The position numbers and the translations under genes are program-made. From positions 2,294,001 through 2,358,000 of the forward strand of contig NZ_VFPL01000001.1 of NCBI RefSeq assembly GCF_006716645.1: a stretch of 64,000 nt of DNA. The letters run 5' to 3'. The stretch is from Arcticibacter tournemirensis. Its GTDB lineage: Bacteria; Bacteroidota; Bacteroidia; Sphingobacteriales; Sphingobacteriaceae. The notes beneath the pieces are model-generated. The model was not told the origin of the DNA, searched no databases, and was given only the letters and a program-made list of their open reading frames with translations. Below are positions 21,133 to 26,553 of this stretch, piece by piece; position 1 is the stretch's first letter, and each line of letters begins with the position of its first letter.

Positions 21133-23058
21133 TTATTTCGCCGCCTGTTTTTGATGACCTGAAGTGCTGAGGTTAATTATCTTGTCGAAAATCTCCGTAT
21201 TCTGATACATGCCGCTGAAAAGGTCTGAACGGGGGCCATAGGCAAAAACAGGAACCATGATGTTCGTATGGTCGTTTGTGCTGAAGGCCCCACTTATGTA
21301 TCCCTTTTTTTCATCAACGTCAAGCAGTGACAGCCCTCCGGTCTCATGGTCGGCAGTAACTACCACCAGAGTTTCGCCGTTTTCATCTGCAAACCGCAGG
21401 GCTTCTCCCACTGCCTGATCAAAATCGATCATTTCTGTAACCACGTAAGGCAAATCGTTAGCATGTCCTCCGTAATCTATCTGCGCTCCCTCGGCCATGA
21501 CAAAAAATCCCTTTTCGTTATCGTTCAGCAACGACAATGTTTTTTTTAGTAATACACTAAGAACATCTTTTCGCCCTTCTTTCACCGGTCGCATTACAGA
21601 ATCGGGCAATAGCAATACCTGTTTCTTTTTTTCTGAAGATAGAAAATCAGACAGCGCATAGCTTGTTTCGTATCCCTTATCCGACAACTTCTTTGCGTAT
21701 TCACCTCTTTTTTTTAGGTCGCGATAGGGGGCCGGAACGCTTCCTGCCAGTATATTCACATTGCTGTTTAAAAGATCAAGCGATATTTTTTCCGACCATG
21801 ATCTGTCTGGTTGCGAGGCAAAAAAAACGGCCGGCGTTGCGTCTGTGACGTCTCCAGTGCTTAACAGTCCACTTACTTTCCCTTCGCGGGCTAAGATATC
21901 CGGGATTTTCAGAACGGCCATTCCGGCGGAGTCCAAGCCGATCGTAGCGTTATTTGCTTTATGCCCGGTAGCTATAGCCGAACCTCCGGCCCCCGAATCA
22001 GTGTTCCCTGCATTTGCCGCCTCCGTACGGGAAAATCCTATGCTTTTAAAATTAGCAATATTTAAACTCCCGTGGTTAGCAGACAGGCCTGCTTTAATAT
22101 GCGCAAGTCCCATTCCATCACCAATTAATAGAATGATGTTTTTTACTTTGCCCGCACACCGGTCACTTTTATAAGAAGGTTTGTATACCGGGAGAGGTTT
22201 ATCGAGGGAATAGGTAGTAAACGGCAATTTTTTAGCGTAGTTGCTCAACGCTTCAGGCTGGTCAGTATTTATGATATCGGCACCCATCTTATGAAGTTCC
22301 ATCCAGGTATTCGGACTGTCGTGTGTTCCCCAAAAACGAAAGGGTTTTTTCCAGCGGCGGGCCTGCTCTATAACCTGGATCAACTTTGCCTTATGCTCTG
22401 GAAACGGCGTTCCTTTTCCATTCCAATCGGTGTATTCTTTGATATTATCGCTTATCATGGCCACTCTTGCCAGCTGATCTTCAGTGTATCGGATGTATGG
22501 CCTTCCGTCGTAAAAGATAAAAGCAGGATAATCGCCGAAGTGTGATGGGAGAGGCATATCCCCACTTAAAACAATACGTATTGCGTTAGGGTTGATCGCT
22601 GGGTCAAACACGTCTTTATAGGGTTTGAGCAGGCGAAGTAATGCCGGGATAACTTGCTGGTGCTTCTCTTTGATATCTATTACGATCTGTAATTTTTTGC
22701 GCTTGTTGGCAAATGGATACCCTCCGTTTTTGTGGAACAGGAAAGCAGCCCGTTTCAGGTATAAAGAATCGAGCGTATATCCGGGAATGATCTCCTTTAG
22801 TTCGTGGGCTACCATGAGCTTCCCGTTTTGTAAAAACACGTCGGCCTCGATGGATTCCATTCCTGCATAGTAAGCCCTGAGAAAGGGAATGTTCTGCTTG
22901 TAGTCGTTGTGACTATGACCGCGAAGTGTCTGCTGCTGCTCAAGTTTTTTTCCTCCGAACATCAGCTGTTCGAGCGAGCGGGGTTTTTCCTGCACTTGCC
23001 GGGCCACAGAGGCTCCGGCAAGTAAAAGGAAAGAATACATCAAAAAGTGTTTCTTCAT
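21133..23058 (-). CDS. Glycerophosphodiesterase-like / alkaline phosphatase fusion
   Basis: 641 residues from the ATG at 23058; a longer frame reaches 23121 but that part overlaps SusD debris. Signal peptide MKKHFLMYSFLLLAGASVA. Residues about 40-290 resemble a phosphodiesterase (PLC/GDPD-like) barrel: RGHSHNDY, MESIEADVFLQNG, VAHE, WGTHDSPNTW, ADIINTDQPEAL. Residues about 300-625 are an alkaline phosphatase: NIILLIGDGMGLAHI, nucleophile region NTDSGAGGSAIATGHK and metal-binding VVTADHETGGLS. The fusion suggests stepwise release of phosphate from phosphodiesters in the periplasm. Family members normally sit below a SusCD pair; here only remnants of such genes remain upstream. A terminator follows. 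Confidence 0.9.
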   Translation of the reverse strand: MKKHFLMYSFLLLAGASVARQVQEKPRSLEQLMFGGKKLEQQQTLRGHSHNDYKQNIPFLRAYYAGMESIEADVFLQNGKLMVAHELKEIIPGYTLDSLYLKRAAFLFHKNGGYPFANKRKKLQIVIDIKEKHQQVIPALLRLLKPYKDVFDPAINPNAIRIVLSGDMPLPSHFGDYPAFIFYDGRPYIRYTEDQLARVAMISDNIKEYTDWNGKGTPFPEHKAKLIQVIEQARRWKKPFRFWGTHDSPNTWMELHKMGADIINTDQPEALSNYAKKLPFTTYSLDKPLPVYKPSYKSDRCAGKVKNIILLIGDGMGLAHIKAGLSANHGSLNIANFKSIGFSRTEAANAGNTDSGAGGSAIATGHKANNATIGLDSAGMAVLKIPDILAREGKVSGLLSTGDVTDATPAVFFASQPDRSWSEKISLDLLNSNVNILAGSVPAPYRDLKKRGEYAKKLSDKGYETSYALSDFLSSEKKKQVLLLPDSVMRPVKEGRKDVLSVLLKKTLSLLNDNEKGFFVMAEGAQIDYGGHANDLPYVVTEMIDFDQAVGEALRFADENGETLVVVTADHETGGLSLLDVDEKKGYISGAFSTNDHTNIMVPVFAYGPRSDLFSGMYQNTEIFDKIINLSTSGHQKQAAK

Positions 23059-23071
23059 TACTGAACTTGTT

Positions 23072-23407
23072 TTACCAGCCCGGCGTTTGTTTATAAATCC
23101 CTCCGCTGCGCGAAATTTCATCAGGATTCATCGGCCAGGCCATATGTTGATCATTGAATTTGTTCCTGGCTTTTCGTCTGTGCCATACGTATATGGTTCC
23201 ATATATTTCTCTATCTGAAATCCTGACATGCTATTTGTAGAAAAGTATTCCTCCCTTTTTCAAAGAAAGTAAATTTATCTCCAAAAGAAAGAATCGTTAC
23301 CCCTCTTCTTGGGTCGTTCGATTCGTTTTCGTCATACAATTCTTCGTAGGGGCGAAGTATCCCCATCAGGTATACATCCCCACTGATTGCGAACTGTTTG
23401 CGGCGGC
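23072..23407 (-). pseudogene. Degraded SusD/RagB gene remnant
   Basis: Read on the minus strand, pieces of a SusD protein appear in three frames. From 23407: GDVYLMGILRPYEELYDENE then DPRRGVTILSFGDKFTFFEKG. Next, after a frame change, MSGFQIEKYMEPYTYGTDEK. Last, NDQHMAWPMNPDEISRSGGI ending QTPGW and a stop at 23072-23074, which is the typical SusD C-terminus. The middle and N-terminal parts are missing. It ends 14 nt before the phosphatase start, the position of a SusD gene in intact loci. Confidence 0.72.
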
Positions 23408-23412
23408 GAAGA

Positions 23413-23514
23413 AAGTTTATCAGCGTATCTCCTGTAAAGCAGTTCAAAAGCCCTCCTGTCGCTATTCTCATTTAATAAGAGCAAAAGGTCATTATCTGCG
23501 AGGCTATTGATCAT
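23413..23514 (-). pseudogene. Truncated ECF sigma factor, N-terminal remnant
   Basis: Starting at the ATG at 23514 the frame reads MINSLADNDLLLLLNEN and then SDRRAFELLYRRYADKL. This is the start of region 2 of a SusCD-type ECF sigma-70 factor. Similarity stops at about 23413, where SusD sequence takes over in another frame. Regions 2.2-4, an anti-sigma gene and a SusC gene are therefore gone, consistent with one large deletion joining sigma to SusD. Confidence 0.7.
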
Positions 23515-23606
23515 ACCCAGCAAATAAACATATGAGATATTAAGGTAACGTGAAGTAAAAGTTAATGCTCGTAACAAGGACCAAGATAATAAAATTGAAT
23601 AATAAC

Positions 23607-23669: not shown

Positions 23670-23990
23670 ATGAGAAGAGATGTTTTTCAGGCTATATCTG
23701 ACCCTACCAGGCGGGCAATTATTTCGCTCATTGCATTACAGGCAATGACACCTAACACCATTGCCGAACATTTTGAGACAACCCGTCAGGCAGTATCAAA
23801 ACACCTGCGCATTTTGCAGGAATGCGAGTTGATAAGGGCCGGGCAACAGGGGAGAGAGATCTATTATCAGCTTGAGATAGACAGAATGAAAGAAATCGAC
23901 CAATGGCTGGAGCAGTTCCGGCAAATTTGGGAAACAAAGTTCAGCCAGCTTGACAATTTATTACTAACTATAAAAAATGAGAAAAAATGA
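23670..23990 (+). CDS. ArsR/SmtB-family winged-helix regulator
   Basis: 106 residues. Starts MRRDVFQAISDPTRRAIISL, the ArsR hallmark, with helix-turn-helix TIAEHFETTRQAVSKHLRIL and a wing ELIRAGQQGREIYYQL. Cysteine metal-binding motifs (ELCVC) are absent, so this is the metal-independent type that typically sits before SRPBCC proteins. Its stop overlaps the next start (ATGA at 23987), so it is translated together with the SRPBCC gene. Probably autoregulates the operon from the promoter 32 nt upstream. Confidence 0.93.
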   Translation: MRRDVFQAISDPTRRAIISLIALQAMTPNTIAEHFETTRQAVSKHLRILQECELIRAGQQGREIYYQLEIDRMKEIDQWLEQFRQIWETKFSQLDNLLLTIKNEKK

Positions 23991-24505
23991 AAACAGTACT
24001 GCTATTTGAATTTACCGTGGACAAGGGCAGTAACACGGTAAATGTAAGAAGGGAGTTTGCCGCAAATCTCAATCTCGTTTGGGATGCATGGACCACACCA
24101 GAGTTGCTCGACCAATGGTGGGCACCGAAGCCCTATAGAACAGAAACGAAATCCATGGATTTCAGGGAAGGTGGAAGTTGGTTGTATGCGATGATTAGTC
24201 CTGCCAACGAAAAACATTGGTGTAAAAATGACTATCACAAAATAGACGGGCATAAGAGTTTTACCGCACTGGATGCTTTTTGCGATGAAAACGGAGTGGC
24301 GAACCAGGATATGCCAAGAACCGTGTGGACTAACGTTTTCAGTGCAACCGGCGATAAAACTCTTGTTACCATTACAGCAAAATATGATAGTCTCGCCGAT
24401 CTTGAAAAAATTATCGAGATGGGCTTTAAAGAAGGCTTTACAATGGCGCTCGGAAATCTGGACGAGCTATTATTAACTTTAAGCAACAACCAGGATGAAG
24501 AGTAA
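23987..24505 (+). CDS. SRPBCC/AHSA1-family lipid-binding-fold protein
   Basis: 172 residues. Characteristic AHSA1 blocks: VNVRREFAANLNLVWDAWTTP, LLDQWWAPKPYRTETKSMDF, REGGSWLYAM and EMGFKEGFTMALGNLDELL. The fold makes a hydrophobic ligand pocket; the ligand is unknown. The first 15 residues before VRREF are longer than usual and an internal start cannot be excluded, but the ATGA overlap with the regulator supports this start. Overlaps the DoxX gene by 11 nt. Confidence 0.9.
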   Translation: MKTVLLFEFTVDKGSNTVNVRREFAANLNLVWDAWTTPELLDQWWAPKPYRTETKSMDFREGGSWLYAMISPANEKHWCKNDYHKIDGHKSFTALDAFCDENGVANQDMPRTVWTNVFSATGDKTLVTITAKYDSLADLEKIIEMGFKEGFTMALGNLDELLLTLSNNQDEE

Positions 24506-24872
24506 AATTTTAACTGTACTGTCCATCCTGTTCGGGCTCTTATTTATTAATGCTGGCTTGAATAAGTTCTTCAACTACATGCCGGTACCGGAAAATCTGC
24601 CCGAGCCATTGGCTAAGGACACTGCCGCTTTTCTAGAGATTTCCTGGTTAATGCCTTTAGTTGGCTTCGCAGAAATGGCAGGCGGCTTGCTTATCATGTT
24701 TCGGAGAACCAGGGCCTTAGCAGTATTGATTATTTTCCCTGTAATGGTAGGAATACTGCTTACAAACATTTTTGTAGCGCCCGATGGGCTTCCTGTTGCA
24801 CTTGTGATCTGGGGCATCCTGCTCTGGATAATTTATGATAACCGCCGAAGATATCTACCGATCATCGGTTAA
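24495..24872 (+). CDS. DoxX-family membrane protein
   Basis: 125 residues, four predicted helices: ILTVLSILFGLLFINAGLNK, EISWLMPLVGFAEMAGGLLI, ALAVLIIFPVMVGILLTNIF and LPVALVIWGILLWIIYD. This is the DoxX/SURF4-like layout. Third gene of the ArsR operon, overlapping the SRPBCC gene. The ArsR-SRPBCC-DoxX set is common in Bacteroidota and is of unknown function, possibly a membrane or redox stress response. Confidence 0.85.
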   Translation: MKSKILTVLSILFGLLFINAGLNKFFNYMPVPENLPEPLAKDTAAFLEISWLMPLVGFAEMAGGLLIMFRRTRALAVLIIFPVMVGILLTNIFVAPDGLPVALVIWGILLWIIYDNRRRYLPIIG

Positions 24873-25977: not shown

Positions 25978-26553
25978 ATGGTTTATTCGGTTTGTCAGAA
26001 GTATCATCTTTGTACCCGCCTGAATGTATCTTTTCCAAGGAGCACTGGTAACACGCCCTGTTTCTACAATCATTTTGTCACTGATCGCGAGGAGCCCTTT
26101 GACCGCCCGGGAACACCCGACGACTCCAAAGGACACTATATTTTTGATATCCCCGATCCGCTATGGAACTTCGGGTCCGGCTTAAGCTATACGCAGTTTA
26201 AATACCTTAACTGCAGTCTGAAAGATTCTGTGTTAACACAGACTGGAACTGTCAGGGTTGAAATAGAGGTCGAGAATGCCGGTACCCGTGATGGGAAAGA
26301 GGTAGTTCAACTCTACGTACGCGACAAGTTCAGCTCTGTCGCCACGCCGATCCAGCAACTGAAAGCCTTTAAAAAGGAGTTTATCAAAGCGGGCAAACGT
26401 TCAAAGGTGATTCTTGAGGTTCCGGTGTCAGAACTTGGCCTCTACAACGATAGGATGCAGTATGTAGTGGAGCCCGGAGAGTTTGAAATCCAGGTTGGAA
26501 GTGCCTCTGATAATATTCATTTTAAAAAAACTGTAAGGGTGGGGAAGGAATGA
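25978..26553 (+). pseudogene. 3' remnant of a GH3 beta-glucosidase
   Basis: From about 26020 the frame matches the end of glycoside hydrolase family 3: NVSFPRSTGNTPCFYNHF, FDIPDPLWNFGSGLSYTQF and the fibronectin-III-like tail VENAGTRDGKEVVQLYVRD ending VGSASDNIHF. About 180 residues remain out of a usual 750-800. The catalytic (beta/alpha)8 domain and its nucleophile Asp are lost, so it cannot be active. The first 14 codons look unrelated. It faces the intact glycan locus on the other strand. Confidence 0.8.

Follow-up and report, generated by a model that had tools for sequence, protein, structure and literature searches.

Among the described systems with which the present locus can be compared, the closest is PUSII of Flavobacterium johnsoniae DSM2064, which consists of the PusCD2 pair (Fjoh_3250/1) and the phosphatase PhoA1 (Fjoh_3249) (PMC8115612). 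Its description includes an extra pf13653 (GDPD_2) domain in this PhoA1, proposes that the enzyme acts on organic phosphorus, and reports that the PUSII pair is induced under phosphate depletion (PMC8115612). Here we describe a locus found in the window, i.e. the whole 64,000-nucleotide stretch of Arcticibacter tournemirensis DNA that was analysed. This locus is very probably the relic of a PUSII-type locus of the order ECF sigma - FecR anti-sigma - SusC/PusC - SusD/PusD - GDPD/alkaline phosphatase fusion. Its features are the following; L183 is an intact locus of a relative (genome G158), whose SusD gives the residue numbers.

21133..23058, minus strand: intact GDPD + alkaline phosphatase (PhoA1-type) fusion, 641 residues (Pfam, conserved columns)
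23072..23170, minus strand: C-terminal SusD remnant, ending in KQTPGW and a stop (tblastn, own-genome search)
23146..23259, minus strand: SusD remnant, residues ~354-387 of the L183 SusD, in a third frame (tblastn, own-genome search)
23262..23380, minus strand: SusD remnant, residues ~309-348 of the L183 SusD, in two frames and with one stop (tblastn, own-genome search)
23413..23514, minus strand: N-terminal remnant of an ECF sigma-70 factor, ~34 codons (profile of intact-locus sigma N-termini; aligned with L036, L188, L194 and L195)
23521..23555, minus strand: candidate Pho-box-like promoter, two 11-bp units and a TTTG end (own-genome pattern search; matrices)

The fusion enzyme stayed intact. 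Its ATG at 23058 lies 13 nt after the SusD stop codon, a gap that had earlier been given as 14 nt. Pfam recognised an Alk_phosphatase domain (PF00245, 2.1e-52) and a GDPD_2 domain (PF13653, 2e-6; 28.5 bits, the cut-off being 27), and the protein is a PhoA-type phosphatase bearing the PF13653 domain. By reading, its N-terminus resembles a signal peptide. Among 104 relatives, 133 columns reach a conservation of at least 98%; the enzyme has the family residue in 128 of these and departs from it in five. The residues kept include H48, E71, D73 and H85 in the GDPD half and D314, D354-S355, E523, D528, H532, D570 and H571 in the phosphatase half, residues with catalytic roles in these families. Residues 304-631 align with the alkaline phosphatase structure 2w5v (E 6.2e-66). 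The phosphatase half is like that of 2w5v and 2iuc, which are presumably both TAB5 alkaline phosphatase, and the 375-residue chains of these structures align there only, leaving the GDPD half uncovered. The family search brought up no close intact copy, the nearest fusion relatives being at most 59% identical.

Upstream of the enzyme, the relic occupies 443 nt of the minus strand (23514-23072), in which about 34 codons of an ECF sigma gene are joined to stretches of SusD. In the tblastn comparison, residues 315-348 of the L183 SusD correspond to 23363-23262 (73.5% identity over 34 residues), residues 354-387 to 23247-23146 (68%) and residues 503-534 to 23170-23075 (69% over 32 residues), the last being followed by a TAA at 23074-23072. 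A further stretch, residues 309-320 at 23380-23345, comprises 12 residues including a stop and is weak alone. All four stretches are 67-74% identical to the L183 SusD and they are spread over three frames; residues ~387 to ~503 are absent. With the SusD of L036 (genome G035) as the query, a whole-genome search independently recovered three pieces, with E-values of 2.8e-10 (23262..23380), 1.6e-11 (23146..23259) and 4.7e-8 (C-terminal piece), and a SusD profile scored 21.9 bits on the relic compared to at most 3.1 in 300 shuffles. The earlier note, which had allowed for SusD-like pieces without any hits, was right to read them as out-of-frame SusD; their number has to be revised, there being four stretches rather than three.

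The sigma remnant begins with the ATG at 23514, and its frame passes into other sequence after ~34 codons and then stops. It scored 17.6 bits against a profile of intact-locus sigma N-termini, the maximum in 300 dinucleotide shuffles being 7.3, which bears out the sigma N-terminus of 34 residues proposed earlier. Many sigma genes of the relatives seem to begin upstream of their first ATG. An earlier, poorer profile had given 7.7 bits versus 6.9 for the best shuffle, and it was the use of full N-termini that improved it. Pfam alone yielded a SusD_RagB match at E 0.15 for the C-terminal SusD piece and nothing relevant for the other SusD pieces or the sigma piece. Given the shuffle controls for both profiles, the relic region is not a product of chance. 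The order is that of an operon: the sigma start, the SusD pieces in operon order, and the fusion directly downstream. Nothing recognisable as FecR or SusC was detected in the 443-nt remnant, and the former presence of both genes would follow from the relatives described below. A translocation of the SusCD pair to another place in the genome was considered and rejected: no intact SusD approaches the similarity of the remnant (the best-scoring intact match is 32% identical over residues 12-505), and the best SusC reaches only 37%. That SusC belongs to another sigma-FecR-SusC-SusD locus (C1 4356184-4363421) with other downstream genes.

Two observations concern the surroundings. A divergent cassette adjoins the relic at 23670-24872 (plus strand) and encodes an ArsR-type regulator, an AHSA1/SRPBCC protein and a DoxX-like protein. 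At 25978-26553 (plus strand), 2.5 kb away from the relic, a 191-residue ORF matched only a C-terminal Fn3-like domain (PF14310, 5.8e-21), without any match to a catalytic part; this domain is, we assume, of the kind that ends GH3 beta-glucosidases, and the ORF may be a second truncated gene.

The earlier note had proposed a comparison with intact loci of related genomes, and these loci make the extent of the loss apparent. The archetype, sigma-FecR-SusC-SusD-fusion, is found in L036. In the genus of the window, L038 shows the same order, and L037 starts at the contig start with FecR-SusC-SusD-fusion (gene names by reading). Upstream stretches were fetched for 60 loci, 59 of them SusD-bearing and one collapsed. 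In the first 20 of these, the sigma, the FecR and the start of SusC could be read in order in 19, the twentieth being the collapsed L200. A profile search over 61 regions (the 59 fetched SusD-bearing loci, L036 and L038, all from the close clade, in which 85 loci bear a SusD) found sigma, FecR and SusC, in this order, ahead of SusD and the fusion in 59; the exceptions were L215, with SusC only, and L218, without sigma. The segment that runs from the sigma ATG to the SusD stop measures 7,082 nt in G158 and 6,999 nt in G035, compared to 443 nt in the window. Thus ~6.6 kb is gone relative to these two genomes, including all of FecR and SusC. With the enzyme retaining 128 of 133 conserved columns, it was correct to propose that most of a phosphate-scavenging SusCD locus had been deleted and the enzyme kept. 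The gene order is shared with L036, L183/L188 (both G158), L037 and L038, which, in contrast to the window locus, are intact. The SusD of the window locus is 63-74% identical over the main pieces to those of the L036 and L183 loci, and its fusion enzyme is 52-55% identical to those of intact loci of the same family. A search that included five further genomes of the genus yielded no close relative with the same remnant, the most similar fusion being 55% identical. A scan of genome contigs for relatives returned only three loci at 41% identity and was uninformative.

With regard to the distribution of the enzyme, 184 of the 399 genomes in the family search have the fusion when matches are required to reach E <= 1e-100. 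We compared the neighbours of 112 loci, comprising 100 of the top-scoring places among the matches listed and 12 of the 13 from the first search; L046, which has the GDPD half only, was left out. A SusD gene was adjacent in 88 loci, absent in 22 and partial in 2, and the 1.5 kb that precede the fusion gave no SusD match at E 1e-3 in any of the 22 solo loci. The close clade, with 105 rows including the window, contains 85 SusD-bearing loci, 18 without SusD and 2 with remnants. A tree over 113 rows requires 13 changes between the SusD-bearing and SusD-free states, 11 of them forced by strong branches. The tree does not fix their directions, and with an unclear root and g15 group they should not be counted as so many losses. 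Physical proof of loss exists only in the window and in L178; in L131, which branches among SusD-bearing loci, the enzyme stands alone. L178/L200 (G376) resembles the window in that its fusion is intact and a broken piece of SusD (58 residues, E 1.6e-15) lies in the gap before it. It differs in the part of SusD that survives, in the lack of a sigma piece (by reading) and in the lack of a Pho-box-like site. In L184 (G211), which was counted among the SusD-bearing loci, SusD is split over two frames (243 + 321 residues) with SusC and the fusion intact, so that either decay has just begun there or the sequencing is in error. A different arrangement was read in L035 (G039:C12, 3671-15000), where the fusion clusters with a PI-PLC-like gene, a second alkaline-phosphatase-like gene, SusCD and a further GDPD-like gene, possibly a phospholipid head-group locus.

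Most sigma genes of the intact loci are preceded by a recurring motif, TTAACATTAAG, followed by an 11-bp unit with AA-A and then TAnnTTTG, i.e. it is built of 11-bp TTAACA-type repeats plus TAnnTTTG. The motif was learned from 59 sigma promoters, the window and the solo loci being held out, and some members, mainly of g17, fit it poorly. With <=2 mismatches allowed, it occurs 9 times in the genome of the window and the reversed pattern not at all; at <=3 mismatches the genome-wide enrichment is modest (38 versus 25). Four of the nine matches precede phosphate or phosphoester genes by Pfam: a PhoU_div gene, next to which lies a PiT-like permease (by reading), a polyphosphate kinase gene and two genes for calcineurin-type phosphoesterases, one at 19 nt and the other at 363 nt. 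Three others precede the sigma gene of another SusCD locus, a SusC gene and a lipoprotein-like gene (the latter two by reading), and the remaining ones precede an ORF without a Pfam hit beside pst-like genes (by reading) and, at L252, no sensible gene. For a Riemerella PhoP studied by DAP-seq, TTTAACA is given as the most conserved bases (PMC9603813), and Pho boxes have been predicted at plcP clusters of marine bacteria (PMC4796936). A Pho-box promoter would be expected to have direct repeats with an 11-bp spacing immediately before the -7/-10 element, in common with other phosphate genes of its genome. Given its matches before phosphate-related genes and its likeness to the Riemerella TTTAACA, the shared motif looks like a Pho box. 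In the partial texts that made up the literature searched on phosphate boxes and SusCD decay, we met no report of this box for such loci and no relevant report of the decay of SusCD loci. Two places in the genome of the window with Pho-box-like matches were noted in addition. A second sigma-FecR-SusC-SusD locus (L278, C1:4354452-4363566) has the motif 110 nt before its sigma gene and, after SusD, two ORFs with endonuclease/phosphatase-type motifs (by reading). At L279 (C1:4946366-4950720), three matches (<=3 mismatches) lie around lipoprotein-like and TonB-receptor-like genes, which may correspond to the PUSIII/PUSIV-type genes of F. johnsoniae.

Two alternatives concern the origin of the relic. 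Frameshifts alone could be errors of sequencing or assembly in an otherwise intact operon. However, ~6.6 kb with the whole of FecR and SusC is missing inside a contig of 5,185,936 bases, and single-base correction therefore cannot restore the operon. The recovery of a full sigma or SusD gene by error correction, which would have spoken against the earlier reading, is beyond such fixes, and we rejected this explanation, whose probability is negligible. The enzyme might also have been inserted beside an unrelated sigma/SusD ruin of which it was never part. The fusion and the SusD pieces do indicate different nearest clades: the fusion stands beside a g17 clade in the tree (support 93), whereas the best matches of the SusD pieces are SusDs of g14 and g7. 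The occurrence of the fusion without an adjacent SusD in 22 of the 112 fetched loci points in the same direction. Nevertheless, SusD lies directly upstream of the fusion in 85 of the 105 close-clade rows, and the SusD C-terminus of the relic precedes the fusion by a gap much like that in the SusD-bearing loci, so that we regard such an insertion as highly improbable.

A weightier alternative accepts the collapse of a PUSII-type locus and concerns the promoter that now serves the enzyme. The site at 23555-23521, which reads CTTCACGTTACC-TTAATATCTCA-TATGTTTATTTG and ends 6 nt before the ATG of the sigma remnant, would formerly have stood before the sigma gene and is now the candidate promoter of the fusion. 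It could instead be a decaying leftover or a chance match, the enzyme being transcribed from a new or internal promoter and no longer regulated by phosphate. The site has 3 mismatches to the pattern and is weaker than the genome set at <=2 mismatches, and its score of 11.4 with a 34-nt matrix is reached by 2 of 200 shuffles. In L178, which is also collapsed, such a site is missing (73 of 100 shuffles score as well). Upstream of the fusion, 11 of the 22 held-out solo enzymes score above every one of 100 shuffles; in the close clade it is only 8 of 18. There is, moreover, a sigma-70-type match at 23613-23586, although Bacteroidota promoters differ from this type. Against this, the spacing of both 11-bp units and the TTTG end matches that of the intact loci, and the site lies where it would be expected, immediately ahead of the sigma ATG. 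With a 44-nt matrix, none of 60 shuffles reached its score. No better site was found inside the relic, nearer to the enzyme (9 of 200 shuffles as high). A strong copy of the motif (score 27.8) ends 65 nt before the fusion ATG in L131 (G301). Inheritance of the promoter is thus plausible in the window and has good sequence support in L131, but it is not a general rule. We consider a new promoter a real possibility, just short of an even chance, and lean slightly towards survival of the old sigma promoter, which would now transcribe the enzyme through a ~455-nt relic leader.

Comparison with the intact loci shows that deletions took away whatever followed the sigma N-terminus, the complete FecR and SusC genes and the greater part of SusD, together with an internal segment of the SusD end, and that frameshifts accumulated in the remnants; the order of these events is conjectural. 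With the old promoter surviving, low phosphate would still induce the enzyme via a PhoB/PhoP-type regulator, without the sigma/anti-sigma relay and without a dedicated outer-membrane transporter. The enzyme would then act on glycerophosphodiesters and phosphomonoesters that are present in the periplasm or enter it by other routes. A broader proposal, which we put forward tentatively and consider rather doubtful, is that, in this family, organophosphate loci coupled to SusCD lose everything but the enzyme time and again, and that the old Pho-box promoter of the sigma gene then takes over the enzyme; the window, with its relic leader kept, and G301 would represent two stages. If this is true, a transporter-coupled, relay-controlled system is converted into a short one under direct phosphate control.

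The window locus shows that the enzyme of a PUS-type locus can persist after its outer-membrane transporter and its control by sigma and anti-sigma are gone, and the GDPD-PhoA1 fusion would accordingly seem to be of use even where no dedicated SusCD accompanies it. The motif gives this bacterial family a specific Pho-box candidate, with which prediction of the phosphate regulon would become possible, and the window locus offers a clean test case for the role of the ECF relay in such loci.

The comparison with PUSII rests on a SusCD pair beside a PhoA-type phosphatase with pf13653, and the likeness covers this pair and the enzyme; the term phosphate-scavenging fits it. In PUSII the pair is intact, whereas the window keeps scraps of sigma and SusD. 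The window locus is a relic and no functional PUSII-type locus, because it lacks intact adjacent SusC and SusD genes: no SusC was recognised, and SusD occurs only as out-of-frame pieces. The event itself is ordinary gene loss and decay in a known type of locus. What is new in comparison with the known systems is the shared promoter motif and an enzyme that has outlived its transporter in more than one lineage.
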